This document shows, piece by piece, positions 19,234 through 36,439 of a DNA stretch of 64,000 nucleotides. The notes under the pieces were generated by a model that saw only the letters and a list, made by a program, of their open reading frames with translations, was not told where the DNA came from and made no database searches. The stretch comes from Sedimentisphaera salicampi. GTDB lineage: Bacteria > Planctomycetota > Phycisphaerae > Sedimentisphaerales > Sedimentisphaeraceae. The DNA is taken from assembly GCF_002117005.1 (NCBI RefSeq), contig NZ_CP021023.1:868001-932000 (forward strand), given 5' to 3'. Each line of letters opens with the position of its first letter. The first letter of the stretch is position 1. The translations under genes and the position numbers were made by a program.

Positions 19234-22200
19234 TTATTCCTCTACAAGCCAGTTTTCAAGAAGAATCAGCAAATCATCTATTCCTACCTGATTGTTCGGA
19301 GGCTCTGCAATATCAGCGGACGGCTCGGCCGGGGCGACAAGCCATTGATCAGATAATATTGAAAAATCTTCTAAATCGACCTTAGTGCTCTGGTCAATAT
19401 CTGCAGGATTATAATGCCTGATAAAGCTCATATTATCGAGAAAAACGCTTGAACTATCCAATTCCATCCGCAAAACCTGTCCCTGGCCGTCCGGCAGGAC
19501 TAAATCAGGGATCACGGTTGTCTGCCAGTCTGACCAGCTTCCTGTTGTATTCAAATCTGCAGAAACAATATGATTTCCATCAAGAGATAATGTTAGCTGC
19601 TGACCGGAATAAGGCCCTGCGGAAAGAATTGAAAGGTCATAGTTTCCGCCTGCTAAATCAACAGTGTATTCAAGCCATTCGCCGGCTTCTGTATACACAG
19701 CAAATCCTTCATTTACAGCAGCAATCTCCACGGCTTCATCGGGCCGATACCCGCCATAAGTGTTTGTAGGAGTTGTATCAAAAAAGCTTATTTCCTGGCC
19801 GCCGGTATCAAAATTTTCAAATTCTATCTGGCCGGGAATTGAGTGCGGAACATTTTCCGGATAGGGAACCTGCTTTGCAAACTGCAACCAATCCAGCTGG
19901 AAGCCCTCCCCTGCAAATTCAAGCTCAACTGAAGCATTCTGCTTCTCCGGCAATGGTTCACAAAGTGCGGGTATGATTTGCCAGTTTGTTAATCCGCCTG
20001 TATTGGGAACATCAATCACGGCCGAAAGCTCATCATCAATACGAACAAGAATCTGCCCTCCTGACTGAACGGAAGCAGCTTTGGCATATACATCTGCAGT
20101 CCCTTCAATACTGTTCACTGTATAACTCAGCCATTCACCTGCCTCAATGCCGCCTACTGCATACTCACTTCCAGACTCACCAATATCAGCAACATCAACA
20201 TTTTCATAATACCTGAAATCGCCGATGCCGTTATCAGAAGAAGTGTCGTAATACGCTTTGCCGGCACCGCCGAAGTCGTATTCTTCAGCCTGAATCCTTC
20301 CCGGAATCGTTGGAGGAGTTTGTCCCCAATGCCCTTCTTTCTCAATCCTAAGCCAGTTCACATCAAGCCCGCCAAACGGAAATTCCATCCGCAAAACCTT
20401 ACTTCCAGCCGCAGGCAAAATTACATCATTCAGCACAAAAGTCTTGAAATTATCAGAAGAACCGGTACTGCTGACTGTAAACTCGGCAAGCATTTGTTCT
20501 TCTAAACTGCTCAATGCCATAACAGAAGAACTTTGTGCCTGATTTTCTAAAACAAAAGCCAAATCATCCACAGCGCTCCAGATCCAGCTGTTATCGCAAT
20601 GTACACGCAATTTTGTAATCCAGTATCCATCAGGGGCAGCTATCCCTGAGAAACTGTCATAGGTCGTGTTCCCGCTGGTCATATCGATATATCTTGAGGT
20701 GCTTGTGCTTCCTGAATCTTCTCCGTTGGTGTAATATGCGATAACGCGCCACCAGCCGTCGCTGCTGCCGTCTCTGCCGAGAATAGTGATGCCTGCGGCG
20801 ATAAGGTCTTGCGGCTCCATCCCGACAAAATCGCTGAATTCGAATTCATACCTGCTGGTATTTCCTTGGAGTCTTTTATCGCCTGAGACAGGCGTTCTCC
20901 CGCCTCCGGAAGCTGTATTATTGACGAAGCTGCTTGCGCCCGAGCTGCCGGTCGCAGTAACGCTAAATTGTTTCTGCCCCCCTGCAAAAACTGCGGTGAA
21001 AGATTCTGAGTTATTAAGCTCATTGTTATCAAAATTGAGCACCCCTCCATTACCGCTCAAGTATTTCTCTTCCACCCACGGCTTGAATTCTTCATACGTC
21101 ATAACCTGACTTGCTCCAAGGGTTTGTCCGATACCCGTTGTCCATGAGGAATTGCTCGAATAGCTCATACTGTAATCAACTTGATTAGTCTGAACATTTT
21201 GTTCGTCATACACTCCTGCAGCATCAAAAGAAGGGTAAGTGAAATGTTTAATTACAACTGGAGTTTCGCTTAAAGTTGTACTCGCCCGCAGGTACATACA
21301 GTAATTGTCTGAATCGGGAATATTAACTGTATAATTTAGCCACTCATCAGGCCCGATATCGGTTACCGCAAAGCTGTTATAATAATCAAAAACGCCACGA
21401 ATATCCACATCTTCACCCAACCTGAAAGCTTCCTGCTCGTTTCCTATTGTAGAATCGTGATAAGCAATGCCCTGCCCTCCTAAATCAAAACGTTCGGCTG
21501 AGATTTGGCCGGGGATATCAGCAGGAGTTCCGTCATAAGGCTCTGAAGTCATACTTATATTAAACAATGTATCTATTTCGTTTCCAGTGAGAGCATAATC
21601 AAACAAACGGATATCATCTATCCTGCCCTCATAGTATCCATCGGAAGACCAGTTGCTGCGGCCTATAAAATTTGAGCTTCTAAGGACACTCCTAGGCGGT
21701 GTGGCAGTGCCTGTTTTGATAAGCTGTGAATCTTTATAAATCTTCACATTACCAATGCTGTCAACTGTAACAGAAAAGAATTGCCATTTATTCAGTTCGA
21801 TCGCATTTGAAGCCCGAACCATACTCCCGCCGGTGGCATTATTATATACCTGAAAATATAAATCATCAGTATCACTATATCTTGCGGCTACTATATTATC
21901 TCCATTTGGCCCATTGCCGAGATCAAAGAATCTCGCATACGATTTCACCGCTGTTGGATATACCCAGAACGAAGCAGAAAAGCCATTGTCGAATTCATCA
22001 TAGCCTTCCGGTAATTCGATATACTCATCACCATCTAAACTCAGAGCATATCCCCGCATTCCCTGAACAGAATCATTATCGAATGAGAGGCCGTTTTTCA
22101 AGCCGGCATCCATCTGCTTGCCGGACAAATCAACAGCCGAAGTTCCATTAGGTGCATCGAGTTTGTAAAATCCAATACATTCCTTGTTTTGGTCTAAGGA

Positions 22201-23544
22201 TATCGCAGGGAAGCTGACATGGTCTTTGTAAGCATTGCCCGCAGGGGTAAGCCAGCCGTCATCATAAAACATCTCGCGATTTGTGCACCACTGATAGATG
22301 GAATATCTTTCCACAAAAGAAGCAGTAGAAAGCATTGAAAGCAGCTCTGCAATCTTATCGCCATTTTGCTGATAGGAGGGATGAGGAGTTGTCCAGTTGC
22401 AGCCGTTGTTCCACTCAGTAATCCAGAGAGGTCTTTTTGTTCTTTCGTGCACGGCTTTCAGCCAATTATACATCTGTGAGGCAGACCAGTTATTTTTATA
22501 AAAATGCACTGGTACAAAATCCACACGATAGTTCAAAGCATCGGCCTGATCAATAAAATCATACAGCCAGTTCAAGCCGCCGTCGCTGGGTGAAGGCGCA
22601 CCTAAACGCAGCCCGGATTCCAGCAAATTCGGCCATCTGTCAATCGCTTCTGATACTGACATATCAGCCTGATCCGGCCGGTCAGGTTCATTGAATCCGA
22701 GAACGTGGGTTACATTTTCCTTTGCGTTAGTTACTGAGTAGCTCGGCCATGTTGGGCCGTGCCTCATCGGAACATATTCCACATCCAGAGTAGTCTCTCC
22801 ACCATTGCCCCAGTTATACCGCCATGAACAATTCAAAGCCTCAGAAGCCGAACCTGAAACATTACTCGGAGTTCCGCCTGCCCAGCCTTTTTTGGTTGTC
22901 CAGTGCCATGGAAACACCCGTACAAAAGAAACAGATTTGTCAAGGTCTGCGGGCATAACGCCGATTTTCAATTTCTTATCATCTGCTATATAAACTCTGC
23001 TGATTCCTGTCCCGTCGCTATTTTCGGCAAATGTGGCCATATAGCCTCGTTTCAAAGTAAAAGAGCAGATCGAATCGTTCATTGCGCCCAACTGCTCAGT
23101 TTTGTAATAGGTATGCAGACCGAATCTTTGTGAGCTGCCGGTGAAGTTAATCCCGCTGTACACTTTAAGCGGCTCGTAATCCTCGCCATGCGGAATTACA
23201 ACAGCGCCGTTATGGTAACGTACTATTCTAATATTTGAATCCAATGCAGACTGTGAGCCGTTTACATAAATTTGGCTGAGATAAACTGAGGAATTGACCT
23301 CAGAAGGCTTCAGAGATGAAAAGAAAAGCCAAGCTTCCGCAGAATTCAAATTTATCTGACAGTTATCTAATACAGACGAGCTGCCGGAAAGGTGCAGCTC
23401 TGAGGTGCCGGTGATATTTACTGTAGTATCAGCAAGCGAGGTGTAGGTTTGAATATCATTATCTATAGTTATGGTTTCGCCAAAGCTTTTGCCGGCAGCA
23501 GAAAATATTAAAATGACAGCTATTAAAGACAGTAAATTTTTCAC
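19234..23544 (-). CDS. Multidomain secreted GH128-like glucanase with LamG, CBM6 domains, an inserted novel module and a dockerin-like tail
   Basis: The 1436-residue protein has a signal peptide (1-22), an N-terminal beta segment, and a catalytic-like barrel at about 195-445. Glu286 in VLGFNEPDRP and Glu377 in LWITEWNN fit acid/base and nucleophile of the GH128/Asl1-type beta-1,3-glucanase fold. LamG lies at about 450-665. The first CBM6 (676-1069) is split by a foreign-looking module at about 774-1000. Two further CBM6 domains cover about 1080-1224 and 1237-1376 (each with PGQI/PGRI, GGxxxxYxD and GEWLxYTV). A dockerin-like pair ends the protein (ADIDQSTKVDLEDFSILSDQ and QVGIDDLLILLENWL). 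The inserted module also occurs in the proteins at 25842 and 29620. Role: extracellular polysaccharide binding and probable glucan cleavage. Confidence 0.85.
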   Translation of the reverse strand: MKNLLSLIAVILIFSAAGKSFGETITIDNDIQTYTSLADTTVNITGTSELHLSGSSSVLDNCQINLNSAEAWLFFSSLKPSEVNSSVYLSQIYVNGSQSALDSNIRIVRYHNGAVVIPHGEDYEPLKVYSGINFTGSSQRFGLHTYYKTEQLGAMNDSICSFTLKRGYMATFAENSDGTGISRVYIADDKKLKIGVMPADLDKSVSFVRVFPWHWTTKKGWAGGTPSNVSGSASEALNCSWRYNWGNGGETTLDVEYVPMRHGPTWPSYSVTNAKENVTHVLGFNEPDRPDQADMSVSEAIDRWPNLLESGLRLGAPSPSDGGLNWLYDFIDQADALNYRVDFVPVHFYKNNWSASQMYNWLKAVHERTKRPLWITEWNNGCNWTTPHPSYQQNGDKIAELLSMLSTASFVERYSIYQWCTNREMFYDDGWLTPAGNAYKDHVSFPAISLDQNKECIGFYKLDAPNGTSAVDLSGKQMDAGLKNGLSFDNDSVQGMRGYALSLDGDEYIELPEGYDEFDNGFSASFWVYPTAVKSYARFFDLGNGPNGDNIVAARYSDTDDLYFQVYNNATGGSMVRASNAIELNKWQFFSVTVDSIGNVKIYKDSQLIKTGTATPPRSVLRSSNFIGRSNWSSDGYYEGRIDDIRLFDYALTGNEIDTLFNISMTSEPYDGTPADIPGQISAERFDLGGQGIAYHDSTIGNEQEAFRLGEDVDIRGVFDYYNSFAVTDIGPDEWLNYTVNIPDSDNYCMYLRASTTLSETPVVIKHFTYPSFDAAGVYDEQNVQTNQVDYSMSYSSNSSWTTGIGQTLGASQVMTYEEFKPWVEEKYLSGNGGVLNFDNNELNNSESFTAVFAGGQKQFSVTATGSSGASSFVNNTASGGGRTPVSGDKRLQGNTSRYEFEFSDFVGMEPQDLIAAGITILGRDGSSDGWWRVIAYYTNGEDSGSTSTSRYIDMTSGNTTYDSFSGIAAPDGYWITKLRVHCDNSWIWSAVDDLAFVLENQAQSSSVMALSSLEEQMLAEFTVSSTGSSDNFKTFVLNDVILPAAGSKVLRMEFPFGGLDVNWLRIEKEGHWGQTPPTIPGRIQAEEYDFGGAGKAYYDTSSDNGIGDFRYYENVDVADIGESGSEYAVGGIEAGEWLSYTVNSIEGTADVYAKAASVQSGGQILVRIDDELSAVIDVPNTGGLTNWQIIPALCEPLPEKQNASVELEFAGEGFQLDWLQFAKQVPYPENVPHSIPGQIEFENFDTGGQEISFFDTTPTNTYGGYRPDEAVEIAAVNEGFAVYTEAGEWLEYTVDLAGGNYDLSILSAGPYSGQQLTLSLDGNHIVSADLNTTGSWSDWQTTVIPDLVLPDGQGQVLRMELDSSSVFLDNMSFIRHYNPADIDQSTKVDLEDFSILSDQWLVAPAEPSADIAEPPNNQVGIDDLLILLENWLVEE
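20542..21225 (-). repeat. Copy 1 of the shared ~227-residue module (inside CBM6)
   Basis: It encodes residues 774-1000 of the 1436-residue protein. Landmarks are AAGVYDEQNVQTNQVDYSMS, WTTGIGQTLG, KRLQGN, ITILGRDGSS, APDGYWITKLRVHCDNSW and DDLAFV. It is strikingly similar at DNA level to copy 2, with long identical stretches (for example around 20577-20625 versus 27323-27371), indicating a recent copying event. Confidence 0.8.
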
Positions 23545-23744: not shown

Positions 23745-25793
23745 TTATGGACACTCAGGGTATAGCCCGCAGCTTAGCCAATTCCCGGCAAGAGCGGTAA
23801 AATCAGAGATATCGATAACGCAATCAGGCTCAAAGCCTTCCTGCCCTATCACAAGGCCGGTGTTGGAATTTGCAACATCGAGCTGGGATTCATAATCTAA
23901 TATGCATGATTTCACCCCTGTAACATCATAGTACATATCAGCTACAGCGAATTTATCTGCTGCATAGTTTAGAATCTGAACATCATCCAGTTCACTGCCG
24001 CTGAGCGGGTCAAATTCTTCGTTTACAGAAGGGTTATCAACAGCGCCAAGCATAATCATACTTTCAGCGCCAGAGGACAGGCTGCCGCTGTCGGAAGCCT
24101 TCTCTAATCCGTTGAAATAGACTTTACCTTCTGAGCCGTCAAAAGTTGCTGTTACCAAAGTCCACTCATCAACCGGAAGTGATTCGCCAGTCCATGCGCT
24201 CAGGTTGCTGTAGTTGTAAAAACGAACAGTTCCGCCCGGAAATTCATTTCTAATAATCAAACTCCATCGCATAGCGCTGTCCCAGCTGTCTCGCTTGCTT
24301 ACAATGCCTTTATGCGATGAAGTATCTCCATCCCATTTAACCCAGGCGCTTACAGTAAGCTGATTTGAATACTTGGAAGGATCCCATGTGCCCGCTTGTG
24401 CCCAGCTGTTTACCTCATCAATCAGTACTGAATCACCAACGATACCAGCATTAAATGCAGGGGTTCCGTTGGGGTCTGCGGGATGATAAACATCATCATC
24501 GGTGCTTACATCAAGATACTGGCCGCCGGAATAATCTGCCTGATCAAATGTCCAGTGGGCCATCTGCCTTTTTACAGCCGCTTTGGCAACACTGGAAGTG
24601 GTTGTGCCTCCGTCATTGGTGATAACGCAATAGTAGAATCCTTCATCGGCAGCAGCTATGTCTGCTAAGCTGAGAATGCTTGAACTGCTGCCTGCCTCCA
24701 CGTCATCTTCGGGGGTCTCGTTTGAATTATCATCAGATTTATACCAGAGATACTGTTCAGGAGAGACGCTGCTTACTTCAACAGAAAGCTCAGCATCCTC
24801 TCCAGCATCTTTGAGAACATCTGCCGGCTGGCTAAGGATAACCGGAACGCTTGAAAGCGAATCAAAGCTCCACACAGGCCCGATGATCTTATTTTCATCT
24901 ACGTCTTCAAGCTCACTTAACCCTGCTGTAAAGCTCTGCTCGTATCCGTCAACAGCCTCCACAACTGCCCACTGATAAGAAGTATCATAATTGAGGCCTG
25001 AAACGGTATATTCTGAGGAAGGATCTTCAGTGCCCGGGTCTTCGCCGGCAGCGCCAACATAATAAAGGTTCGGGTCTTCCCCACCGGTAGTCATAAAAAC
25101 ATACTGATCAACAATATCAGGGTTTACCGCATATTCATCATTGATATCCGGTGCTGCCTGCCAGCTCAAATCTGCGTCAACACTGTTTGCTTGAGCAGTT
25201 TGGCTTACTGAAGGGTCGTAAGGCTTATTGCTGAGATCCAATACGAAATTGGTTACCATCACACGGCCTCCGCCGCCTTCCTGCACATTTCTAAGCCGAA
25301 TTCCAAGCTCTTTACCTGCAATCTCCGGCTTATCGGCTATATCAAATGATATTTGATGAGATTTCCATGTTCCGGAGCTGTTATCAAGTTGTGAATACAC
25401 GCCAACAGCTCCCGAACCATCTACTGCAAACAGCTCAACATACAAACCCCATGTCCATGTTAACGGGTATGAGTTGAAGGTAAGTTCATATACTTTACCT
25501 GCCTGTATAGTATGAGTTGTTTCTTGGGAAAGAATAGCTGTCCAGTGGTTATAACTGATCCGTCCTGAAATATCTTTCCCGTTAGGGGGAATCGGCGCGC
25601 CTTGATCCGTTGGCACGACAACATTTGTGTAGCCGGTACCCTCCCATGCAAGAGCATCATCTATGCCTCGAGCCGTCATACTTTCACTGCCTGTTCCATC
25701 GAGATCGAAATCAGGATTGGTAATAATATTTGCCGCCTGCACTGACACAAAGCTTATCAGCATCAGTATTGAAAATAATTTTATTCTTTTCAT
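23745..25793 (-). CDS. Secreted CBM4/9-like, FN3-like, Ig-like, LamG protein with dockerin-like tail
   Basis: The 682-residue protein has a signal peptide (KLFSILMLISFVSVQA) and an N-terminal jelly-roll module resembling CBM4/9 at about 21-195 (NIITNPDFDLDGTGSES, then AGKVYELTFNSYPLTW). An FN3-like region follows (YDPSVSQTAQANSVDADLSW), then an Ig-like domain (PADVLKDAGEDAELSVEVSS, DEGFYYCVITNDGG), a LamG domain (MAHWTFDQADYSGGQ, then LTVSAWVKWDG and DDVQILNYA) and a single dockerin-like motif (DCVIDISDFTALAGNWL). No catalytic domain is visible, so it is probably a glycan-binding or surface protein. From the FN3-like region through LamG it is a near-duplicate of the next gene (25842-28046), while the N-terminal module differs completely. 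Confidence 0.85.
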   Translation of the reverse strand: MKRIKLFSILMLISFVSVQAANIITNPDFDLDGTGSESMTARGIDDALAWEGTGYTNVVVPTDQGAPIPPNGKDISGRISYNHWTAILSQETTHTIQAGKVYELTFNSYPLTWTWGLYVELFAVDGSGAVGVYSQLDNSSGTWKSHQISFDIADKPEIAGKELGIRLRNVQEGGGGRVMVTNFVLDLSNKPYDPSVSQTAQANSVDADLSWQAAPDINDEYAVNPDIVDQYVFMTTGGEDPNLYYVGAAGEDPGTEDPSSEYTVSGLNYDTSYQWAVVEAVDGYEQSFTAGLSELEDVDENKIIGPVWSFDSLSSVPVILSQPADVLKDAGEDAELSVEVSSVSPEQYLWYKSDDNSNETPEDDVEAGSSSSILSLADIAAADEGFYYCVITNDGGTTTSSVAKAAVKRQMAHWTFDQADYSGGQYLDVSTDDDVYHPADPNGTPAFNAGIVGDSVLIDEVNSWAQAGTWDPSKYSNQLTVSAWVKWDGDTSSHKGIVSKRDSWDSAMRWSLIIRNEFPGGTVRFYNYSNLSAWTGESLPVDEWTLVTATFDGSEGKVYFNGLEKASDSGSLSSGAESMIMLGAVDNPSVNEEFDPLSGSELDDVQILNYAADKFAVADMYYDVTGVKSCILDYESQLDVANSNTGLVIGQEGFEPDCVIDISDFTALAGNWLSCGLYPECP
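23932..25228. repeat. Long direct repeat, copy 1 (pairs with 25999-27283)
   Basis: This covers the FN3-like, Ig and LamG coding part of the 682-residue protein. Long runs are identical to 25999-27283, with scattered substitutions and small indels and the most divergence inside LamG. The two copies lie head-to-tail about 2.07 kb apart, indicating tandem duplication. Confidence 0.85.
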
Positions 25794-25841: not shown

Positions 25842-28046
25842 CTACTCTGCCGGATACAATCCGTCTGTCATCCAGTTGGCTGCTAATTCTGCAAAATCAT
25901 AAAGATTAACTTTGCAGTCTGGAGAACCATCAGGCCCGCTTACATCCAGCCCGTCTGCATATTCTTTAATACAAACATTTTCACCGGTGAAAGAGCTGTA
26001 CATATCAGCTACAGCGAATTTATCTGCTGCATAGTTTAGAATCTGAACATCGTCCAGTTCACTCTCCAAAGGCAGCACACTGCCGGTTGCCGGATTTTCA
26101 AGCGCACCAAGCATAATCATACTGTCTGCACCATCATTCAGGCCGCCTTCAGCCGACTGCTGTTCTACGCCGTTATAATAAATCTTCCCTGTTTGGCCGT
26201 CGTGGGTTACAGCAATAAAGATCCATTCATCTACCGGCAAAACATCGCTCGGCCATAGATCAATCCCGCCGTTGGTGTAGAAACGTACAGTGCCATTATT
26301 TCTCATAGTTAAAGACCATCGCATATTATCACCCCAGCTGTCTCGCTTGCTGACAATGCCGTGATTATCTGAGGCTTCTCCATCCCATTTAACCCAGGCG
26401 CTTACAGTAAGCTGATTTGAATATTTGGAAGGATCCCATGTGCCCGCTTGTGCCCAGCTGTTTACCTCATCAATCAGGACAGAATCACCATCAATGCCGG
26501 CATTAAACGCAGGGGTTCCGTTGGGGTCTGCGGGATGATAAACATCATCATCGGTGCTTACATCAAGATACTGACCGCCGGAATAATCTGCCTGATCAAA
26601 TGTCCAGTGCGCCATCTGCCTTTTTACAGCCGCTTTGGCAACACTGGAAGTGGTTGTGCCGCCGTCATTGGTGATAACGCAATAGTAGAATCCTTCATCA
26701 GCAGCAGCCATGTCTGCTAAGCTGAGAATGTTTGAAGTGCTGCCTGCCTCGACGTCATCTTCGGGGGTCTCGTTTGAATTATCATCAGATTTATACCAGA
26801 GATACTGTTCAGGAGAAACGCTGCTTACTTCAACAGAAAGCTCAGCATCTTCTCCAGCATCTTTGAGAACATCTGCCGGCTGCGAATCTATAACGGGAAC
26901 GCTTGAAAGCGAATCAAAGCTCCACACTGATCCGATAATATTATTCTCATCAACATCTTCAAGCTCACTTACCCCTGCTGTAAAGCTCTGCTCGTATCCG
27001 TCAACAGCCTCTACAACGGCCCACTGATAAGAAGAATCATAATTGAGGCCTGAAACGGTATATTCTGAAAAAGGATCTTCAGTGCCCGGGTCTTCGCCGG
27101 CAGCGCCAACATAATAAAGATTCGGGTCTTCTGCGCCGGTAGTCATAAAAATGTACTGATCAACAATATCAGGGTTCACGGCATACTGATCAGTTGAGTC
27201 TGGGCCGGCCTGCCAGCTCAAAACAGCCTCAACTCCGCTGCTGCCTTGCGAAACTTGGCTTACAGAGGGGCTGTAGGGCTTATAAGAAGACTTAAACACG
27301 AAGCCCAAATCATCTGCAGCGCTCCATGTCCAGCTGTTATCGCAATGTACACGCAATTTTGTAATCCAGTATCCCTCAGGCGCCCTTATTCCTGAGAAAC
27401 TGTCCTCGCTCGTGTCTCCGCTGCTCATATTTATATATCTTGAAGTGCTTGTACTTCCTGAATCATCTCCGTTGGTGTAATAGGCGATAACGCGCCACCA
27501 GTCAGTGCTGCTGCCGTCTCTGCCGAGAATAGTGATACCTGCGGCGATAATGTCTTGCGGGTCCATCCCTGTAAAATCGCTGAATTCGAATTCATACCTA
27601 TTAGTATTGCCCTGGAGTCTTTTATCGCCTGAGATGGGCGTTCTATTACCTCCGGAAGCTGTGTTTTTAACTGTACCGCTCGCACCTGTATTTCCTGTCG
27701 CATTGACTGTAAACTGTCTCTGGGCTCCATCAAAACTCGCAACGAATGAGGCCGAATCGCTCATTTCCGCATTATCAAAATTGATTACTCCTCCATCACC
27801 ATCTAAATAATATTCTTCGACCATCGCCTTGAATTCTTCATACGTCATTACCTGACTTTCTCCAAGGGTTTGACCGATTCCCGTTGTCCATGTGCTGTTG
27901 TTGGAATAAGACATACTGTAATCAACTTGATTCGTCTGAACTTCCTGCTCGTCATAGATCCCAACAGCTTCAAAAGTGGCCGCGCTTGCTAATCCGCAGC
28001 CAAGCAGAAGAAATAACGCTAATAAAAACTTAATTCTTTTCATCAT
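25842..28046 (-). CDS. Secreted novel-module, FN3-like, Ig-like, LamG protein with dockerin-like tail
   Basis: The 734-residue protein has a signal peptide (KFLLALFLLLGCGLASA) followed immediately by the shared module at about 25-252 (EAVGIYDEQEVQTNQVDYSM, WTTGIGQTLGESQ, APEGYWITKLRVHCDNSW). Then come the FN3-like (258-370), Ig-like (PADVLKDAGEDAELSVEVSS) and LamG domains (MAHWTFDQADYSGGQ, SAWVKWDGEAS), and a dockerin-like tail (DCKVNLYDFAELAANWM). It lacks any recognised catalytic residues. It sits directly upstream of, and is co-oriented with, its duplicate at 23745, from which it differs by exchange of the N-terminal module. Two ATG codons are adjacent at the start (28046 and 28043). Confidence 0.85.
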   Translation of the reverse strand: MMKRIKFLLALFLLLGCGLASAATFEAVGIYDEQEVQTNQVDYSMSYSNNSTWTTGIGQTLGESQVMTYEEFKAMVEEYYLDGDGGVINFDNAEMSDSASFVASFDGAQRQFTVNATGNTGASGTVKNTASGGNRTPISGDKRLQGNTNRYEFEFSDFTGMDPQDIIAAGITILGRDGSSTDWWRVIAYYTNGDDSGSTSTSRYINMSSGDTSEDSFSGIRAPEGYWITKLRVHCDNSWTWSAADDLGFVFKSSYKPYSPSVSQVSQGSSGVEAVLSWQAGPDSTDQYAVNPDIVDQYIFMTTGAEDPNLYYVGAAGEDPGTEDPFSEYTVSGLNYDSSYQWAVVEAVDGYEQSFTAGVSELEDVDENNIIGSVWSFDSLSSVPVIDSQPADVLKDAGEDAELSVEVSSVSPEQYLWYKSDDNSNETPEDDVEAGSTSNILSLADMAAADEGFYYCVITNDGGTTTSSVAKAAVKRQMAHWTFDQADYSGGQYLDVSTDDDVYHPADPNGTPAFNAGIDGDSVLIDEVNSWAQAGTWDPSKYSNQLTVSAWVKWDGEASDNHGIVSKRDSWGDNMRWSLTMRNNGTVRFYTNGGIDLWPSDVLPVDEWIFIAVTHDGQTGKIYYNGVEQQSAEGGLNDGADSMIMLGALENPATGSVLPLESELDDVQILNYAADKFAVADMYSSFTGENVCIKEYADGLDVSGPDGSPDCKVNLYDFAELAANWMTDGLYPAE
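25999..27283. repeat. Long direct repeat, copy 2 (pairs with 23932-25228)
   Basis: This is the FN3-like/Ig/LamG coding part of the 734-residue protein. It is nearly the same nucleotide sequence as copy 1 through the FN3 and Ig portions, with most differences between 26080 and 26390 (the LamG core). Confidence 0.85.
27291..27974 (-). repeat. Copy 2 of the shared ~227-residue module (N-terminal position)
   Basis: It encodes residues 25-252 of the 734-residue protein directly after the signal peptide. It is aligned over its full length with copy 1 at 20542-21225 and more distantly with copy 3 at 29707-30387. Confidence 0.8.
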
Positions 28047-28073: not shown

Positions 28074-29533
28074 TCATAAAATTCGATTTGAAATCTTACC
28101 ATCATCTTGATCCAATTTAGGAACAGGCCAATTTGCTGATGGTGTATGTGATTCTTTGAGAAAATCCCAAAACCATTTAACAAGCTCAGGATTAGATTCA
28201 GCAAGGTTTTCCTCCTCACCAATATCATCAGCAAGATTATAAACCTCTACCGGCCTATCGAGACCATTGCAGACAAATTTCCAGTCCCCTTTTCTCGCTG
28301 CACAACGAAAGCCTCTTTCATGATCTTCCCAGTATAGCGGTCGACTTTGCAGCTCCGGCTGCGGCTGAGACAGCAGGCTGGGAACAACGCTCACACCGTC
28401 AATATTATTTGGCAAAGATGCGCCGGCCAGCTCTGCGCAGGTAGGCAGCACATCCGGGAAGTACCAAATATCATCGCTCACAGCCCCCGCTTTTATATGG
28501 CCAGGCCATCTAACAACCATTACTGTTCGCAAACCGCCATCATACAAACTGCGTTTTTTACCCCGCAGCGGGCCTGAGCTGTTGAAAGTGCCCTCATAGC
28601 GATTGGCTGCCCCGTTATCTGAACAGAAGAAAACAATAGTATCCTGATCAATTCCCATCTCTCTAAGCAGAGAAAACATTCTTCCCATATCCCTGTCCAC
28701 ACGGGTCAACATGGAAGCGTAAACTTTTTCCTTTTTCGACCAGCCAGCTTCATCAGCATATGATTCGATTTCAGGGATTTGGAAGGAATCATGAGGCAAG
28801 CAATAAGGTACATAAAGAAAAAAGGGCGCTTCACCGGCCCCGCGGCGTCTAATAAAATCCATTGCAAAATCAGTGAAAAGATCGTGGCTGTAATGTGATT
28901 GATTTGCAAATTTTTTTGTTGTGCCTGTATTACCGTTAAGTTTTTTCTTTTTCTGGTTATCCCATAAATATTCAGGTAGTGTGAATGAGCAAGATGCTGA
29001 TTGAGATACCCAAACCATTCATCAAACCCCTGCCGGTTAGGGAGGCCTGAAGTGTCAGGCTCCCCTAACCCCCATTTTCCAGTGATGCCGGTTGCATAGC
29101 CGGCATCCTTGAGAACTTCTGCGATTGTAACATCGTCCTCCTTCAGCGGTACTCGCGGCCCAGAGCCGCCGCTGCAAGGCACTGCGCCATGCTCGAGATC
29201 ACCCCAGTTGCCTCGAACTGTGGTGCGGCCTGTATGCTGGCCGGTCATTAGGGTGCTGCGCGCAGGGGCGCATATCGTTGCACCGGAATAAACCTGAGTA
29301 AACCGGATTCCTTCTCTGGCCATCTGGTCGATATGCGGCATCCGGATCCGATTCTGCCCATACAAGCTCAAATCACCATACCCCATATCATCCAGCATAA
29401 CAAAGATGATATTAGGTTTCCCAAAAGCAGATGAATCGGCCTTTGAAGATAATCCCAAATGATACCCTGCGCCGGCACCAACTATCGCTGCCAGACCCAA
29501 AAACTTACGGCGAGTTATTCTGTTTGATTTCAT
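28074..29533 (-). pseudogene. Tat-exported type I sulfatase, frameshifted
   Basis: The N-terminal half (start 29533) has a twin-arginine signal (RRKFLGLAAIVGAGAGYHLG) and the sulfatase signature with formylglycine-site Cys (ATICAPARSTLMTGQHTGR, C-x-P-x-R type), plus metal-binding FVMLDDMGYGD. Near 28975 the frame changes. The first frame reads to LAHSHY and then nonsense, while the correct continuation LPEYLWDNQ is in the next phase and runs to the stop at 28074 (FFCSDNGAANRYEG, SLYDGGLRTVMVVRWPGH). A missing C in a CCC run (TAC-CCT reduced to TACCT) would explain it. The whole protein would be about 486 residues. It would remove sulfate esters from a polysaccharide or glycan. The lesion could be a true mutation or a sequencing error. 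Confidence 0.85.
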
Positions 29534-29619: not shown

Positions 29620-30450
29620 TTACTTGCGGCAGCTGCGTTTGCGTTTATTGAGAGAAACAATGCAGCCGCCAAGACCAAATATCGCTAATGTTGCCGGCTC
29701 TGGAACCGTTACAAAAGCAAAATCATCATGAGCTGACCAAGCGTCCTGATCGCTATGTACCCTCATACCAGTGATCCAGTAACCATCAGGGGCAACAATC
29801 CCCGAGAAACTATCCTGAGTAGTATCGCCGCTGGACATATTTATCGTGCGGAAGGTACTGCTGCTGCCGGTATCTGTGCCGTTAGTATAACGAGCAATCA
29901 CCCGCCAGTTAGCGGAGCCCCAATTGCTTCGACCGAGGATTGTCCAACCGATGGCCTTTATTCTTTCATCTGATTCCATACCAATGTAATCACTAAAGTC
30001 AAAATCAAGGGATGGCTGATTTCCCTGAAGCCGGTCTGCCCCTGAGATTGGGGTTCTGTCGCCGCCGGTCTCGTCGAACTTGAATGTGCCGGCTGCATCT
30101 CCAGTTGCTGTTACCGTAAATTGCTTGTCGCCCCCGTCAAATTTGACATCGAATGACGACGCATCCGCTATTGTACCCTCGTGATCGAAGTTAACAACTC
30201 CGCCGCGGCCGTTTGTAAAGGCTTGTTCAACCATAGGCTTAAACTGTTGGAGAGTTAAAATCTGATTATCACCCAGGGTCTGGCCGATACCTGTTGTCCA
30301 TGAGCTGTTGCTCGAATAACCCATATCGTAATCAACTTTATTAGACTGAACTGTCTGTTCGTCATACACTCCAACAGCATCAAAATAGGCTGCATTTGCT
30401 GCGCCGGCAACAAAAATCACAAACGTTAAAACTGCCATTACTCTTTCCAT
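29620..30450 (-). CDS. PEP-CTERM protein made almost entirely of the shared novel module
   Basis: I chose the ATG at 30450 (276 residues) because AAAGGAG precedes it and the signal peptide (MERVMAVLTFVIFVAGAANA) begins there; an in-frame start at 30492 adds 14 unlikely residues. Residues 22-248 are the module (VGVYDEQTVQSNKVDYDMGY, WTTGIGQTLGDNQ, GWTILGRSNWGSANWRVIA, APDGYWITGMRVH, DDFAFV). A PEP-CTERM tail follows (VPEPATLAIFGLGGCIVS, then KRKR). This is the minimal form of the module: one secreted domain plus a sorting tail. It lies upstream of the sulfatase pseudogene. Function unknown. Confidence 0.85.
   Translation of the reverse strand: MERVMAVLTFVIFVAGAANAAYFDAVGVYDEQTVQSNKVDYDMGYSSNSSWTTGIGQTLGDNQILTLQQFKPMVEQAFTNGRGGVVNFDHEGTIADASSFDVKFDGGDKQFTVTATGDAAGTFKFDETGGDRTPISGADRLQGNQPSLDFDFSDYIGMESDERIKAIGWTILGRSNWGSANWRVIARYTNGTDTGSSSTFRTINMSSGDTTQDSFSGIVAPDGYWITGMRVHSDQDAWSAHDDFAFVTVPEPATLAIFGLGGCIVSLNKRKRSCRK
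29707..30387 (-). repeat. Copy 3 of the shared ~227-residue module (stand-alone form)
   Basis: It encodes residues 22-248 of the 276-residue PEP-CTERM protein. Protein similarity to copies 1 and 2 is clear along the full length, but the DNA is more diverged than between copies 1 and 2. Confidence 0.8.
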
Positions 30451-30978: not shown

Positions 30979-33900
30979 CTATTTCATCACCTTGTCAATC
31001 TCGCCCTTAAACGATTCTGGAACTGCCTTAAATAATTTCTCAGTTCTGTTATCTGCCGGATCAACAGGGATGCAGGCGTCCGGATTTTTCGGGTTTCTCA
31101 GCTCGCCAGAGGCAGCTGCCTGCGGCTGAAGGCCTGAGCCCACGCCCAGCTTCTTCATAGCAGATACAGCCCTTGAAGAGGGCAGCATATCAACAGCATC
31201 AAGCCCGGCGGTTAGACCGAAATCTCTCTGCTTTGCGATATCTGAGAATATCCCGAGCCCGTTCATCGGGTCCACTGAATCAATGAAGCTCAGGTAGTCG
31301 TCATTTCCGCTTAAAGGATTGTTTCTGCAGAAATCGTACATATTCATACTCTCAATCTTCCTCTGCGGATCGCGGGACATATATATGCCCAGCTTTGGAT
31401 TGTAGCACCTTGAACCAACGTAGTAGAAATCTGTTTCCTCATCGAGGCGGAAGCCAGAGAACATATACGGGTTTCCAGTAACAGGTTCGGCTACCTGACT
31501 GCCTGTGCTGTCGAAAATTTCGTATTCACCGAAAGCCGAATAGCGGTATGTCTCTTTGATCCCTCCGGTGGAGGAGTCTGCCGAATACACGCCTACAACG
31601 CTGCCCTGGGCGTCCAAATAATAGCCGAAATAGTTTTCTTCAATTTCAGCTGCATATTCAGCGTCGAAACTTGTATCCATATATACTGCAAGGTCTGCAA
31701 GGTCTATCCTGTTTGGATCTGCAAAGTTTGCACCAGCGATGTATCCGCTGTCCTCAGGAAGAGAGAGCCAAGAATCGGCAATTTGCGATGCACTTGGCAG
31801 ATCAAGCAGGTTTTGAGGCCTTTCAATGTTTATCATAGTGATAATTTCCTCACCATTCTCGCCATAAACATACCTTGAAGTTACTTGCCCCTCAGAGCTG
31901 TATTCAGCAATAACGTTCCTGCCGTCATAGCAGAATGTTTTAGTAAGCTGGCCTTCCTCAGCTAATGCGCCTGTTCCGATAGCCTTGCTTATTCTTCTTC
32001 CAAATGCATCGTAGTTATACAGGGCTACATTCACAGTATTCGGGTCTGCGGTGAGGGAGTATTCACCGATCAGCCTGTTTTCGTTGTCGTATATAAACTG
32101 CCTGTCGCCGAAAACTTTGATGTTTCCGTTTCCGTCGTACTGAACCTGATCAGAGCCGACTGAAGTAAATCGTCCCATCCCGTCGCCGTCGTCGGAGTAT
32201 TGGATGGTTGTTCCGTTTTCGGTTTCGCTTTCACGCTGGAGGATGTTGTTGTAGTCGTAATCAACGCCGTCAGCGAAGGTGAGCCAGTAGTTCTTATCGT
32301 AAAAGAAATTCTGCACATACTGCTGCTGGCTTCTTGATACCACGTTGCCCGCTGGGTCTCTTGTGTATTCAACGCTCATTTCATTCGTGCCTGCAAACAG
32401 GTAGCTGATTTTTTCCAGATATATTCCCATATCGTCATCAGATGATCCTACATCTTCATAATCATAGAACGTCTCCGCTCCGCCGACGGTGAGCTTCCTT
32501 GTAGTTCTCCCGCTTTCATCTCGCTGGTAGTAAGCGAGCAGCTCGTTATTGGAGTCTGTAATGGTTTCCAGTCTTCCGGCTGCGTCGTATGCATAAGTTA
32601 CAAAATATCCGTCCGGATAAACCAGCTTTTTGAGCTTCCCGCCCGGGTAATATTCTCTGCTTATCTCCCGTCCAAATGCGTCGATTTCTTTCACGAGGTT
32701 GCCGGCTGAGTCGTACTCAAATTCGCATTTGCCGGCAGAAACGAGCCTTCCCATAACATCATACTTATAGAGCGTGCAGGGCACGAGCCTTACCGCATCA
32801 AATGCCGCTGTCCCGCTTACCTGTTCAAACTGTACTGCTGCCTGTTCGTTTTCAAACTCGCACATCCCCACATTAACCCAGCTCTCGCTTCCGGAGGCGA
32901 GGTTAATCTGTTTTGTGAATTTCGGGCTGCTGCTGTCAAATCCGTCGAAGATATTTACATTCATAGTCCCTGTAATTCCTGCGGGATAGTACACCTGCAC
33001 GAGATATGCGTCTTTGCTGATTGATGTCTGCATCGGGAAGGTTGCCCCGCTTGCTATAGACTGGCTGAACTGCCCGCCGAAGCTTGTGCTGTCCTGAACG
33101 GTTTGCCAGTTCTGTGAATCCATCATAGCAGGGATGCCCGAATCATCAAGCTGTATAACTCCGTCCTGATCGCCCTGAGACTCAGGAATCTTAACAGATT
33201 TGCCCCGGAGCAGGCCGTTTGAATAGTAGTCGTAGTAGTAAACAGCATCGGATGATTTCTTGTGTTTTACAAGATTCCCTGTTCCGTCGTACTGAAATAC
33301 TTCGGCTGTACCGTCGGGCATAATCACTTCTGAAACTCTTCCGTAGTTGTCGTAGTGATAAGTGGTAGTGCTGCCTCTTGGGTCTTTTATTGATTTCAGC
33401 TTTCCGTTTCCGTAGTAGGTGAAATCAGTTTTATTCCCGTTCGGGCCTCTTTCATAGCTCTCAGGGAGTTTGACAGATTTAACCCTGCCGCTGTTGTCGT
33501 AAGTGTATTCAAGATTCTTGAATCCTTCCTGCACAGCTTTGGGGTCTTTCAAATATTCTCTCTTGCCGTTCGGGTCGTAGCCGAGCTGGGTGATCCTGCC
33601 GAGAGAGTCTGTAATCTGAGTGAGCTGGTTTAATATTGAATAGCTGAAATCGTAGCTCAAAGCTGTATTCTCTGAGAAGCTGCTTCCAAGCTGCGAACTC
33701 ACCCTTGATACAAGGCCTGAGGGATTGTATGCAATCTTTGTAATCTCATTGAGGCCGTTGCTTATTTCGCGAATTCTGTCAGCATTATCGTAGGTGAAAG
33801 AAGTAACCTCACCCTGAGGCCTTACCACCTTTTCAACAAAACCGGTTTGCGGATTATAGTCATACTCCCATTTAGCATCCCATACGCCGGCGTTCTTATT

Positions 33901-36369
33901 GAGATAAATCGTTAGATAATCTATCGCACCGGAGCCTGCAAAGGCATACTCATAATCGAGCGTTCCTGCATCAGGCAGAGTAATTTTGCTTATAAGCCCT
34001 TCCGGTGTATACTCGAACTGGTAAGCCGGCCTTGTATTTTCAAACTGTCCTGTCTGCGGTTTGAAATACCGGTCAGCAGGCAGCTCGATTTTCTCCAGCA
34101 GGCTTCCATTATAGCTGAAATCTGCTGTGCTGCCGTTTTCGTCCGTTGCAGAAAGCAGCTTGCTATGAGGCCCTGAGCTGTAGGTGTAGGTTCGTGAGAG
34201 GCCAACGTCGTTCTGATCCGCTTTATGGGTTAATTTTATCATATTGCCGTAGTTGTCGTATTCGTACTCATAGATCTCGCCGGTTGGGAGGATCATTTTC
34301 TTCAAGTGCCCGGGGGCATTCTGCTCTGAAAGCTGCGGGTCGAGGTCGAAATCATAAACGTAATCAGTAACCGCCCATTCCCCGTCATCCATTTCCTTTT
34401 CGAGCTCGTCGAGCAGTCCGGTTTCTGTGAGATGGTGCTTTTCAAGATTGCCTGCTCTGTCGTACACTTCTACTGAAGTTATATTTCCGTTCGGATCGGT
34501 GTAATAAGAAGCAATGAAATCATCCTGCCCGTAGGTCTGCCTGTTTATCCTTCCCTCGGAATCGTAATAATTCACCGACCATATCTGCCCCTGAGAATCC
34601 TCCTGAGTTATAATCTGGTGCGGGTTGTCGGAGTCTGCAGAGGTGTATGTGTACTGTACAGTTCTGCTGCCTGCACCGCTTACTGCCGGCGGGCACTGAA
34701 CAGATACGAGGTCTTGATCATCGTTTCTTGTGTAGTACCATTTCCTTCCGCGGCTGTCTTCAATGTAGTCTATCATCTTATCATCATCGTAGTAGATGTT
34801 GATGTATCTGCCTGCGTCGTTGGTAATGTTTGTGAGGAGGCCGTCGGAATAGTAGAAATCCATCTGATTGCCATACCTGTCTTGGATGTAGTCTATGAAG
34901 TATGTGCGGTCGGTATTTTCTTTATTTGATGCATCGAAGTACCAGTTTACATCGTTCTTCATTTTAACGATAAGATTATCACCATCTTCAAAAAGCATCA
35001 CACCCGGGGCCTTTGCGCAGGTGTAAGGCCCGCTTTCGAGGCTATTATCTCTGAGGAAGTTGTATCTTGCGTTCCCTGCGTAGAGGCGGTATTTATCGTA
35101 ATCGATGCAAGTGTCCTCGTCGGTTTCCTTGCCGCAGTATCTTAGTGCGATGTTGTAGTTGTGGGTCCAGTTGCGTCCAACCCTGCAGCTTTCAGGGTCT
35201 ATCCCGTAATCAATTGTGTAGGTGTAGGATTCTTCATCAATTTGAAGTACATAGCTTGTGCAGTCGCTGATTATTTCGCTGTTTGGATCGCATTCCCAGC
35301 AGAAGTGTTCATACGTTGAATACACATCAACCTGAAGCGTTCCCCCGTCTTTATCGTAGAATTCGCCGAAGCCTTCCTGCACCTCTATCATATTATCGTT
35401 TGGATCAGGTGCGTTTTGCCCGGGCTTCCAGCAGTCCGGCTCAATAAAGTAAGATACATCCTCCACTACCATAAAAGTGTAATTTTTGATAGTATCAGAA
35501 GTGCTGCCGGTATTCCCGTAGGCGTTTACAAGCTCCTCAACGCTCATATTCACTGAATCGTCCTTCATTTGCTCAAGAGCAGCGCAGTCGTTTTCAAGCT
35601 GGCTGTCGTTTGTGCCGGCAAGATATTTCTGCCCGGGAGCAGGATTTGTGAACCTGCGTTTGAATCCCTGATCGTCGCTGTCTCCATAGTACAGGCGGGT
35701 GAAATTTATGTCCATCGTGTTGCCGGGCACATAAATATCATTTATGCTCTGTATCCCTTTTCCTGTGCAGAATTCCACAGGATCCATCCCTTTGTCTGTA
35801 TCAGGGAGCACTTGATCCAGACTCTGGATTCGGTATTTTTTGTTTTCTTCTTCTGTTTCAAACGGCAGCACATGAATATTTTCCAGCCAATGATGGTAAA
35901 GAAAGCTGTCAACAGAGACGTGTGCAAAGTAGTTGGTGAACATCGGGGGAGCAGGGTTGTTTACAGTAATCTCGTAATGCTCCTCAATATCCATATCACG
36001 GAGCGAGCCCTCTGAGACAAGCTCCACACCGCCCGCTGTGCGTATAGAGCAGTACCCCTCATCAGGGCCTTTCTCGTTGAATGCTTCCACCTGCAGAATC
36101 ACATCGCTGCCGTAAAACTCCCAGTTGTAGAAAATGCTGTTTGGGCACACAGGGAAGAAGCTGTTGTCTAACGCGTACCTGTAAACTGTAAGCCCTTCTT
36201 CGATTGGAGGGGTTTCCAGCTCAGGGTATGCAGCGTTGCATTCAGAACGCTCTGTTTTAAAAACTACCTTAAAGAGCTTAAACCATCGTCCGGCTGAAGC
36301 GTTCTGGACAACAAAAAACCCAAGAACAACCGCCGAAACCAGAAGTCCGCTTAAAATTGACCGTTTCAT
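30979..36369 (-). CDS. Giant secreted RHS/YD-repeat protein with embedded dockerin-like motif
   Basis: I chose the ATG at 36369 (1796 residues): GAGG lies 8 bases upstream and a signal peptide starts there (SILSGLLVSAVVLGFFVVQN, cut after ASA). A unique N-terminal region of about 600 residues is followed by many YD repeats (for example DSRGRKWYYTRNDDQDL, YDNYGRVSEVIMPDG, YDAAGRLETITDSNN). A dockerin-like stretch lies about 240 residues before the C-terminus (ADPNRIDLADLAVYM). The RHS core closes with YSAFGEYEIFDSTG, NPYMFSGFRLDEETDFYYVG and SRCYNPKLGIYMSRDPQ. The last ~120 residues after the core (from SGNDDYLSFIDSV to EIDKVMK) form the usual variable tip and match no toxin I recognise. RHS proteins form shells around a C-terminal cargo; a toxin or adhesin role is possible, but no immunity gene follows. 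Confidence 0.88.
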   Translation of the reverse strand: MKRSILSGLLVSAVVLGFFVVQNASAGRWFKLFKVVFKTERSECNAAYPELETPPIEEGLTVYRYALDNSFFPVCPNSIFYNWEFYGSDVILQVEAFNEKGPDEGYCSIRTAGGVELVSEGSLRDMDIEEHYEITVNNPAPPMFTNYFAHVSVDSFLYHHWLENIHVLPFETEEENKKYRIQSLDQVLPDTDKGMDPVEFCTGKGIQSINDIYVPGNTMDINFTRLYYGDSDDQGFKRRFTNPAPGQKYLAGTNDSQLENDCAALEQMKDDSVNMSVEELVNAYGNTGSTSDTIKNYTFMVVEDVSYFIEPDCWKPGQNAPDPNDNMIEVQEGFGEFYDKDGGTLQVDVYSTYEHFCWECDPNSEIISDCTSYVLQIDEESYTYTIDYGIDPESCRVGRNWTHNYNIALRYCGKETDEDTCIDYDKYRLYAGNARYNFLRDNSLESGPYTCAKAPGVMLFEDGDNLIVKMKNDVNWYFDASNKENTDRTYFIDYIQDRYGNQMDFYYSDGLLTNITNDAGRYINIYYDDDKMIDYIEDSRGRKWYYTRNDDQDLVSVQCPPAVSGAGSRTVQYTYTSADSDNPHQIITQEDSQGQIWSVNYYDSEGRINRQTYGQDDFIASYYTDPNGNITSVEVYDRAGNLEKHHLTETGLLDELEKEMDDGEWAVTDYVYDFDLDPQLSEQNAPGHLKKMILPTGEIYEYEYDNYGNMIKLTHKADQNDVGLSRTYTYSSGPHSKLLSATDENGSTADFSYNGSLLEKIELPADRYFKPQTGQFENTRPAYQFEYTPEGLISKITLPDAGTLDYEYAFAGSGAIDYLTIYLNKNAGVWDAKWEYDYNPQTGFVEKVVRPQGEVTSFTYDNADRIREISNGLNEITKIAYNPSGLVSRVSSQLGSSFSENTALSYDFSYSILNQLTQITDSLGRITQLGYDPNGKREYLKDPKAVQEGFKNLEYTYDNSGRVKSVKLPESYERGPNGNKTDFTYYGNGKLKSIKDPRGSTTTYHYDNYGRVSEVIMPDGTAEVFQYDGTGNLVKHKKSSDAVYYYDYYSNGLLRGKSVKIPESQGDQDGVIQLDDSGIPAMMDSQNWQTVQDSTSFGGQFSQSIASGATFPMQTSISKDAYLVQVYYPAGITGTMNVNIFDGFDSSSPKFTKQINLASGSESWVNVGMCEFENEQAAVQFEQVSGTAAFDAVRLVPCTLYKYDVMGRLVSAGKCEFEYDSAGNLVKEIDAFGREISREYYPGGKLKKLVYPDGYFVTYAYDAAGRLETITDSNNELLAYYQRDESGRTTRKLTVGGAETFYDYEDVGSSDDDMGIYLEKISYLFAGTNEMSVEYTRDPAGNVVSRSQQQYVQNFFYDKNYWLTFADGVDYDYNNILQRESETENGTTIQYSDDGDGMGRFTSVGSDQVQYDGNGNIKVFGDRQFIYDNENRLIGEYSLTADPNTVNVALYNYDAFGRRISKAIGTGALAEEGQLTKTFCYDGRNVIAEYSSEGQVTSRYVYGENGEEIITMINIERPQNLLDLPSASQIADSWLSLPEDSGYIAGANFADPNRIDLADLAVYMDTSFDAEYAAEIEENYFGYYLDAQGSVVGVYSADSSTGGIKETYRYSAFGEYEIFDSTGSQVAEPVTGNPYMFSGFRLDEETDFYYVGSRCYNPKLGIYMSRDPQRKIESMNMYDFCRNNPLSGNDDYLSFIDSVDPMNGLGIFSDIAKQRDFGLTAGLDAVDMLPSSRAVSAMKKLGVGSGLQPQAAASGELRNPKNPDACIPVDPADNRTEKLFKAVPESFKGEIDKVMK

Positions 36370-36439
36370 TGTAATAACCTCATTTTCTATTTCGCATAAT
36401 ACAACCCCGGATAACACTTGCTATCCAATCTACAGGTTT

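Follow-up and report, generated by a model that had tools for sequence, protein, structure and literature searches.

A module of an undescribed family nested within a CBM6 domain of a GH128 protein in two related planctomycete bacteria

Domain insertions are common, and CBMs nested in catalytic domains are already known. An ECOD survey found insertions in 20% of multidomain proteins, the guests being usually smaller than their hosts (median 115 vs 199 aa) (PMC13114784). Xyn10C-like GH10 xylanases (Pm25) carry two CBM4 inside the catalytic barrel, and these inserted modules contribute to the binding of complex biomass (PMC7848910). The SusG alpha-amylase, discussed in the same paper, has a CBM58 inserted in its B domain (PMC7848910). 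The combination of GH128 and CBM6 is already known from enzymes that act on beta-1,3-glucan. In CBM6E of Saccharophagus degradans, a GH128-CBM6 curdlan endoglucanase (8j3x/8j3y), the CBM6 targets and loosens the curdlan gel and aids beta-1,3-glucan hydrolysis (PMC10956234). In the part of the literature that was covered, no report of a CBM6 with another module nested in it was found. The locus described here is a clear natural case of a domain nested in a domain, present in two related planctomycete bacteria.

The genome of Sedimentisphaera salicampi is a single contig of 3.19 Mb, and the window analysed is a 64,000-nucleotide stretch of it (G000:C1:868001-932000). The 1436-residue frame named in the preliminary description is present on the minus strand. 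Its features, and the other copies of the inserted module, are as follows.

19234-23544, minus strand: host gene A, 1436 aa; signal peptide, GH128, LamG, CBM6-1 (split), CBM6-2, CBM6-3, dockerin-like tail
22228-22860, minus strand: GH128 catalytic domain, residues 229-439, with the Glu motifs GFNEPD and WITEWN (Pfam Glyco_hydro_cc, 2.9e-38; PDB 6uaq, E=3.6e-34)
21574-22035, minus strand: LamG / ConA-like domain, residues 504-657
21247-21519, minus strand: N-terminal part of CBM6-1, residues 676-766, ending in TPVVIK
21229-21246, minus strand: entry linker HFTYPS, residues 767-772, the first 6 residues of the insert
20548-21228, minus strand: nested module copy A, residues 773-999, 227 aa; 78% aa and ~80% DNA identity to copy B
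20506-20547, minus strand: exit linker ENQAQSSSVMALSS, residues 1000-1013, the last 14 residues of the insert
20335-20505, minus strand: C-terminal part of CBM6-1, residues 1014-1070, starting with LEEQMLAEF
19870-20316, minus strand: CBM6-2, intact, residues 1077-1225
19417-19842, minus strand: CBM6-3, intact, residues 1235-1376
27291-27974, minus strand: module copy B, in a 734-aa Ig/LamG protein as its first domain behind the signal peptide
29704-30384, minus strand: module copy C, nearly the whole of a 290-aa PEP-CTERM protein

The host protein scored 132.2 bits with the GH128 profile (PF11790) against a cut-off of 21, and the glutamates of both GFNEPD and WITEWN align with structure 6uaq; the assignment of the catalytic domain to GH128 is solid. 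The tail contains two dockerin-like repeats, judged by eye and without a Pfam call. Among the neighbours of host gene A are GH2, GH92, a weakly GH30-like gene and a sulfatase. A 1812-aa RHS-repeat protein with a DUF6531 match (30979-36417, minus strand) adjoins these glycan-degradation genes. The sulfatase gene at 28074-29533 (minus strand) is read as two overlapping frames with an apparent one-base length difference, and at this position the orthologue of the sister species is intact (486 aa); the break may be a real pseudogene or a sequencing error.

CBM6-1 was confirmed to be split by an inserted module. On the host protein, Pfam called CBM_6 only in CBM6-2 and CBM6-3. With the insert in place, CBM6-1 stayed below the CBM_6 cut-off and gave only a sub-threshold CBM_35_2 match in its C-terminal half. 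Taken apart, the N-terminal part had no Pfam match and the C-terminal part weak ones only. When residues 767-1013 were removed, CBM6-1 matched CBM_6 (PF03422) with 33.6 bits against the gathering cut-off of 28.9, over positions 3-125 of the 125 in the profile. The boundaries were scanned with a profile made from other CBM6 copies, which was used to score 840 pairs of cut sites. The top excision was exactly 766|1014 with 191.6 bits, the unexcised stretch gave 172.2 bits, and shuffled C-terminal halves (n=500) reached at most 134.9 bits. This places the insertion at one peptide bond, K766|L1014, and the insert comprises 247 residues (K766|767-1013|L1014; DNA 20506-21246). A split CBM6 and a module that both escape standard domain annotation represent a practical blind spot.

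The preliminary description had placed the CBM6 break between about residues 766 and 1018, with an insert of about 227 residues and intact CBM6 copies elsewhere in the protein. The stop at K766 and the two intact copies were borne out, the restart was corrected to L1014 by the excision scan, and 227 aa proved to be the length of the module, the whole insert with its two linkers being 247. Nesting inside a CBM6 is strongly supported, with uninterrupted orthologues in five other genomes of the order. Target-site duplications and junction repeats were sought at the insert junctions and none were found beyond chance (p 0.97). Across the exit linker (20490-20560), the module end VLENQ resembles the CBM6 restart SLEEQ (LENQ / LEEQ).

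Other families of the order also have GH128 orthologues, with GH domains 64-68% identical. In the five whose sequence includes the CBM6-1 region (L036, L037, L039, L040 and L041, all from genera other than that of the host), the order GH128-LamG-CBM6 is the same and CBM6-1 is uninterrupted. Three of these proteins (L039, L040 and L041) have an extra N-terminal region of ~300 aa before the shared part. The joined halves of CBM6-1 aligned with the five orthologues with zero gaps at any residue of the split domain, with identities of 49-53% (N half) and 40-49% (C half), comparable to the 44-52% found between CBM6-2 or CBM6-3 and the complete orthologues. At the junction, STTLSETPVVIK-LEEQMLAEFTVSSTG stands opposite SSVSDSIPVTVK-LDGTVLGTVQVTNTG, so that VTVK-LDGTVLGTV of the orthologue corresponds to VVIK-[insert]-LEEQMLAEF of the host. 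The residue after the TG motif is F in CBM6-1 and in the intact orthologues, and W in CBM6-3. The profile of the orthologue CBM6-1 matches the solved CBM6 structures 2y8k/5la2 at 2e-32. The gap-free alignment to five empty-site orthologues indicates that the module was added at the start of a beta-hairpin turn and that no native CBM6 residue was lost.

The only other genome of the genus that was found (G001) carries the same gene with the same nest and near-identical linkers, and the gene order at the locus is the same. Because the nest is common to both species, the insertion is older than the separation of the genus's two known species, and it is absent in the order-level orthologues. Between the two species, dS of the insert was 0.30, that of the CBM6-1 parts 0.18 and 0.43, and that of the other domains 0.17-0.33; the similarity of insert and flanks suggests one common history. 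In the module tree, both nested copies group together (support 87/97). The dN/dS values of the split CBM6-1 parts were ~0.19 and ~0.05, no higher than those of the intact CBM6-2 (0.27) and CBM6-3 (0.24), which argues that the split domain remains constrained and still folds and works.

These data bear on the earlier proposal that the module was recently copied into the CBM6. Copies A and B lie less than 7 kb apart and are ~80% identical at the DNA level over 672 gapless bases, as would be expected if copy B (27291-27974) had lately been duplicated into CBM6-1. However, the sister species carries the same nest, which refutes this proposal, and between-species dS of the insert is like that of its flanks. 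The A-B identity is moreover a mosaic: the middle is only ~65% identical and the second half 87-96%. In codons 46-108 identity was 0.66 for A-B and 0.63 for A'-B' (the corresponding copies of G001), with synonymous differences near saturation, and in codons 109-210 it was 0.87 and 0.957. We regard a recent duplication as very improbable. Still less credit, next to none, can be given to an assembly or annotation artefact: no point in its favour was found, the gene is one open frame with zero stops, and the same arrangement in an independent genome excludes it.

The economical reading, as these comparisons indicate, would be that the insertion is old and that the nested and free copies later underwent gene conversion. 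In codons 109-210 of G001, the A'-B' identity of 0.957 exceeds that of the orthologue pairs A-A' (0.893) and B-B' (0.923), a typical sign of gene conversion. Of the 57 sites in favour of orthologue pairing, just one falls within codons 112-218, and the longest A'-B' run had a permutation p of ~3e-4 in a simple test that assumes exchangeable sites. The first 127 bases of the insert are 82% identical to copy C, as near as to copy B, and the DNA source of the insert does not appear to be unique to copy B. The nested and free modules of the sister species (L011:5862-6545 and L011:10458-11141) show recent-looking homogenisation at about codons 109-216, with the middle (codons 46-108) spared.

The genome contains exactly three copies of the module, all inside the window. 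Copy C carries a PEP-CTERM signal (TIGR02595, 24.9 bits against 16; PF07589, 23 against 20.7) and the nested copy A does not. The module is rare: it was found in 12/161 genomes of the order, in 7/397 sampled from the class and in 4/392 sampled from the phylum. A contig scan with one degenerate pattern, which has low sensitivity, gave two relatives of the module, and a search of viral contigs gave none of the module or of CBM6. Ten full-length relatives from other genomes were read, and in all of them the module directly follows the signal peptide, so its nested position is derived. The tandem duplicate of the B gene at 23745-25793 (minus strand) shares ~84-85% DNA identity with it from base 566 onward. 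It has an HpiC1-like region in place of the N-terminal module, a second module swap within the same 12 kb, and the list of ORFs for the sister locus contains no counterpart.

The module sequence had no match in Pfam, NCBIfam or PDB, no known CBM family among them, and profile comparison with CBM6 showed no sequence relation; the family is undescribed in the libraries searched. A structure model built from five sequences (pLDDT 63.4, pTM 0.68) shows a beta-sandwich from about residue 51 onward. The first 50 residues contain many conserved positions and are poorly modelled (pLDDT of residues 1-35 mostly <50). At this model quality (pLDDT ~63), the nearest structural neighbours were CBM22, CBM61 and CBM16 (Z 9-10); MAM domains and HpiC1-type cyclases scored only slightly lower, and Foldseek E-values were ~1e-3. 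The C-terminal three quarters of the module are probably a CBM-like beta-sandwich.

Whether the halves of CBM6-1 join into one fold was also addressed by AlphaFold on residues 665-1075, for which both intact CBM6s were supplied as the alignment. The model (pLDDT 38.7, pTM 0.29) was too poor to show whether they join, and the case for a reassembled fold relies on the orthologue alignment instead, together with purifying selection. As no CBM6 residue was lost, a single jelly-roll is most likely still formed by the two parts, and the module would then stick out from the hairpin. The poor model would also be expected if CBM6-1 were a decaying remnant flanking a functional module, its halves no longer a domain, and the joined CBM6-1 scores lower with Pfam (33.6 bits) than the uninterrupted orthologues do (49-61 bits). 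Against such decay, the halves match intact orthologues without gaps and with 40-53% identity, as the intact copies do, their between-species dN/dS is 0.05-0.19, and the insertion lies in a hairpin with nothing removed. Decay of CBM6-1 is therefore improbable in our judgement. The nested module may be only a spacer or a protein-protein domain for assembly or surface anchoring, with no glycan binding; this is the main rival to glycan binding, and we consider it quite possible, if not the favoured reading. No known CBM family matches the module by sequence, and the PEP-CTERM protein that holds free copy C consists of little else than the module. PEP-CTERM proteins are often matrix or surface components. 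The nearest fold neighbours, mostly CBMs, and a neighbourhood that encodes GH2, GH92, GH128 and a sulfatase speak for glycan binding instead.

The reading we prefer is that a free-standing extracellular module of an undescribed family, whose usual place would be directly after the signal peptide in proteins encoded next door, entered the hairpin turn K766/L1014 of the first CBM6 of a secreted GH128 protein before the two known species of the genus separated. Later conversion with the neighbouring free copy B would have kept parts of both modules alike. We hold this nesting and its history to be highly likely. The module would jut from the CBM6-1 hairpin on two short linkers, forming with CBM6-1 a two-headed substrate-binding arm. 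Such a module could supply a second glycan or cell-surface contact beside the CBM6s, and the arm could help a beta-1,3-glucan-type hydrolase to stay attached to its substrate or to the cell. For this two-headed role taken alone, in which both glycan binding and anchoring are deduced, the chances appear about even. If the module binds glycans, it would represent a new CBM family. A wider proposal is that the nested module founds an undescribed CBM family, that with CBM6-1 it makes a 'CBM in CBM' two-site unit in which gene conversion keeps the module similar to its free neighbours, and that as a result one polysaccharide is recognised by both the enzyme and the surface protein; this we offer tentatively, as somewhat unlikely in its full form.

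Compared with the known systems, the likeness to Xyn10C-like xylanases is that a module, in the window a probable beta-sandwich, breaks another domain between two secondary-structure elements in a secreted polysaccharide-degrading enzyme, and is inherited. In those enzymes, however, the host is a catalytic barrel and the guests are known CBMs, whereas here a CBM6 is the host and the guest comes from an undescribed family. SusG likewise has a sugar-binding module nested in a glycan hydrolase, but its host is a catalytic domain and its guest belongs to a known CBM family. CBM6E shares the catalytic and CBM families of the host protein (sequence matches of 3.5e-6 for the GH and 1.1e-9 for the CBM6); its solved construct has one uninterrupted CBM6 and no nested module, and the GH128 of the window is nearer to 6uaq than to CBM6E. 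The A-B-A architecture of the ECOD survey is also that of the nest, although here the guest (~227 aa) is larger than its host (~148 aa). Among the common domain insertions, the combination of an empty site, free donor-type copies and a sister species makes this a useful case, in which the event has a place on the tree and the nested and free copies show traces of later exchange. A second head on CBM6-1, for binding or for anchoring, would most likely strengthen or redirect attachment.
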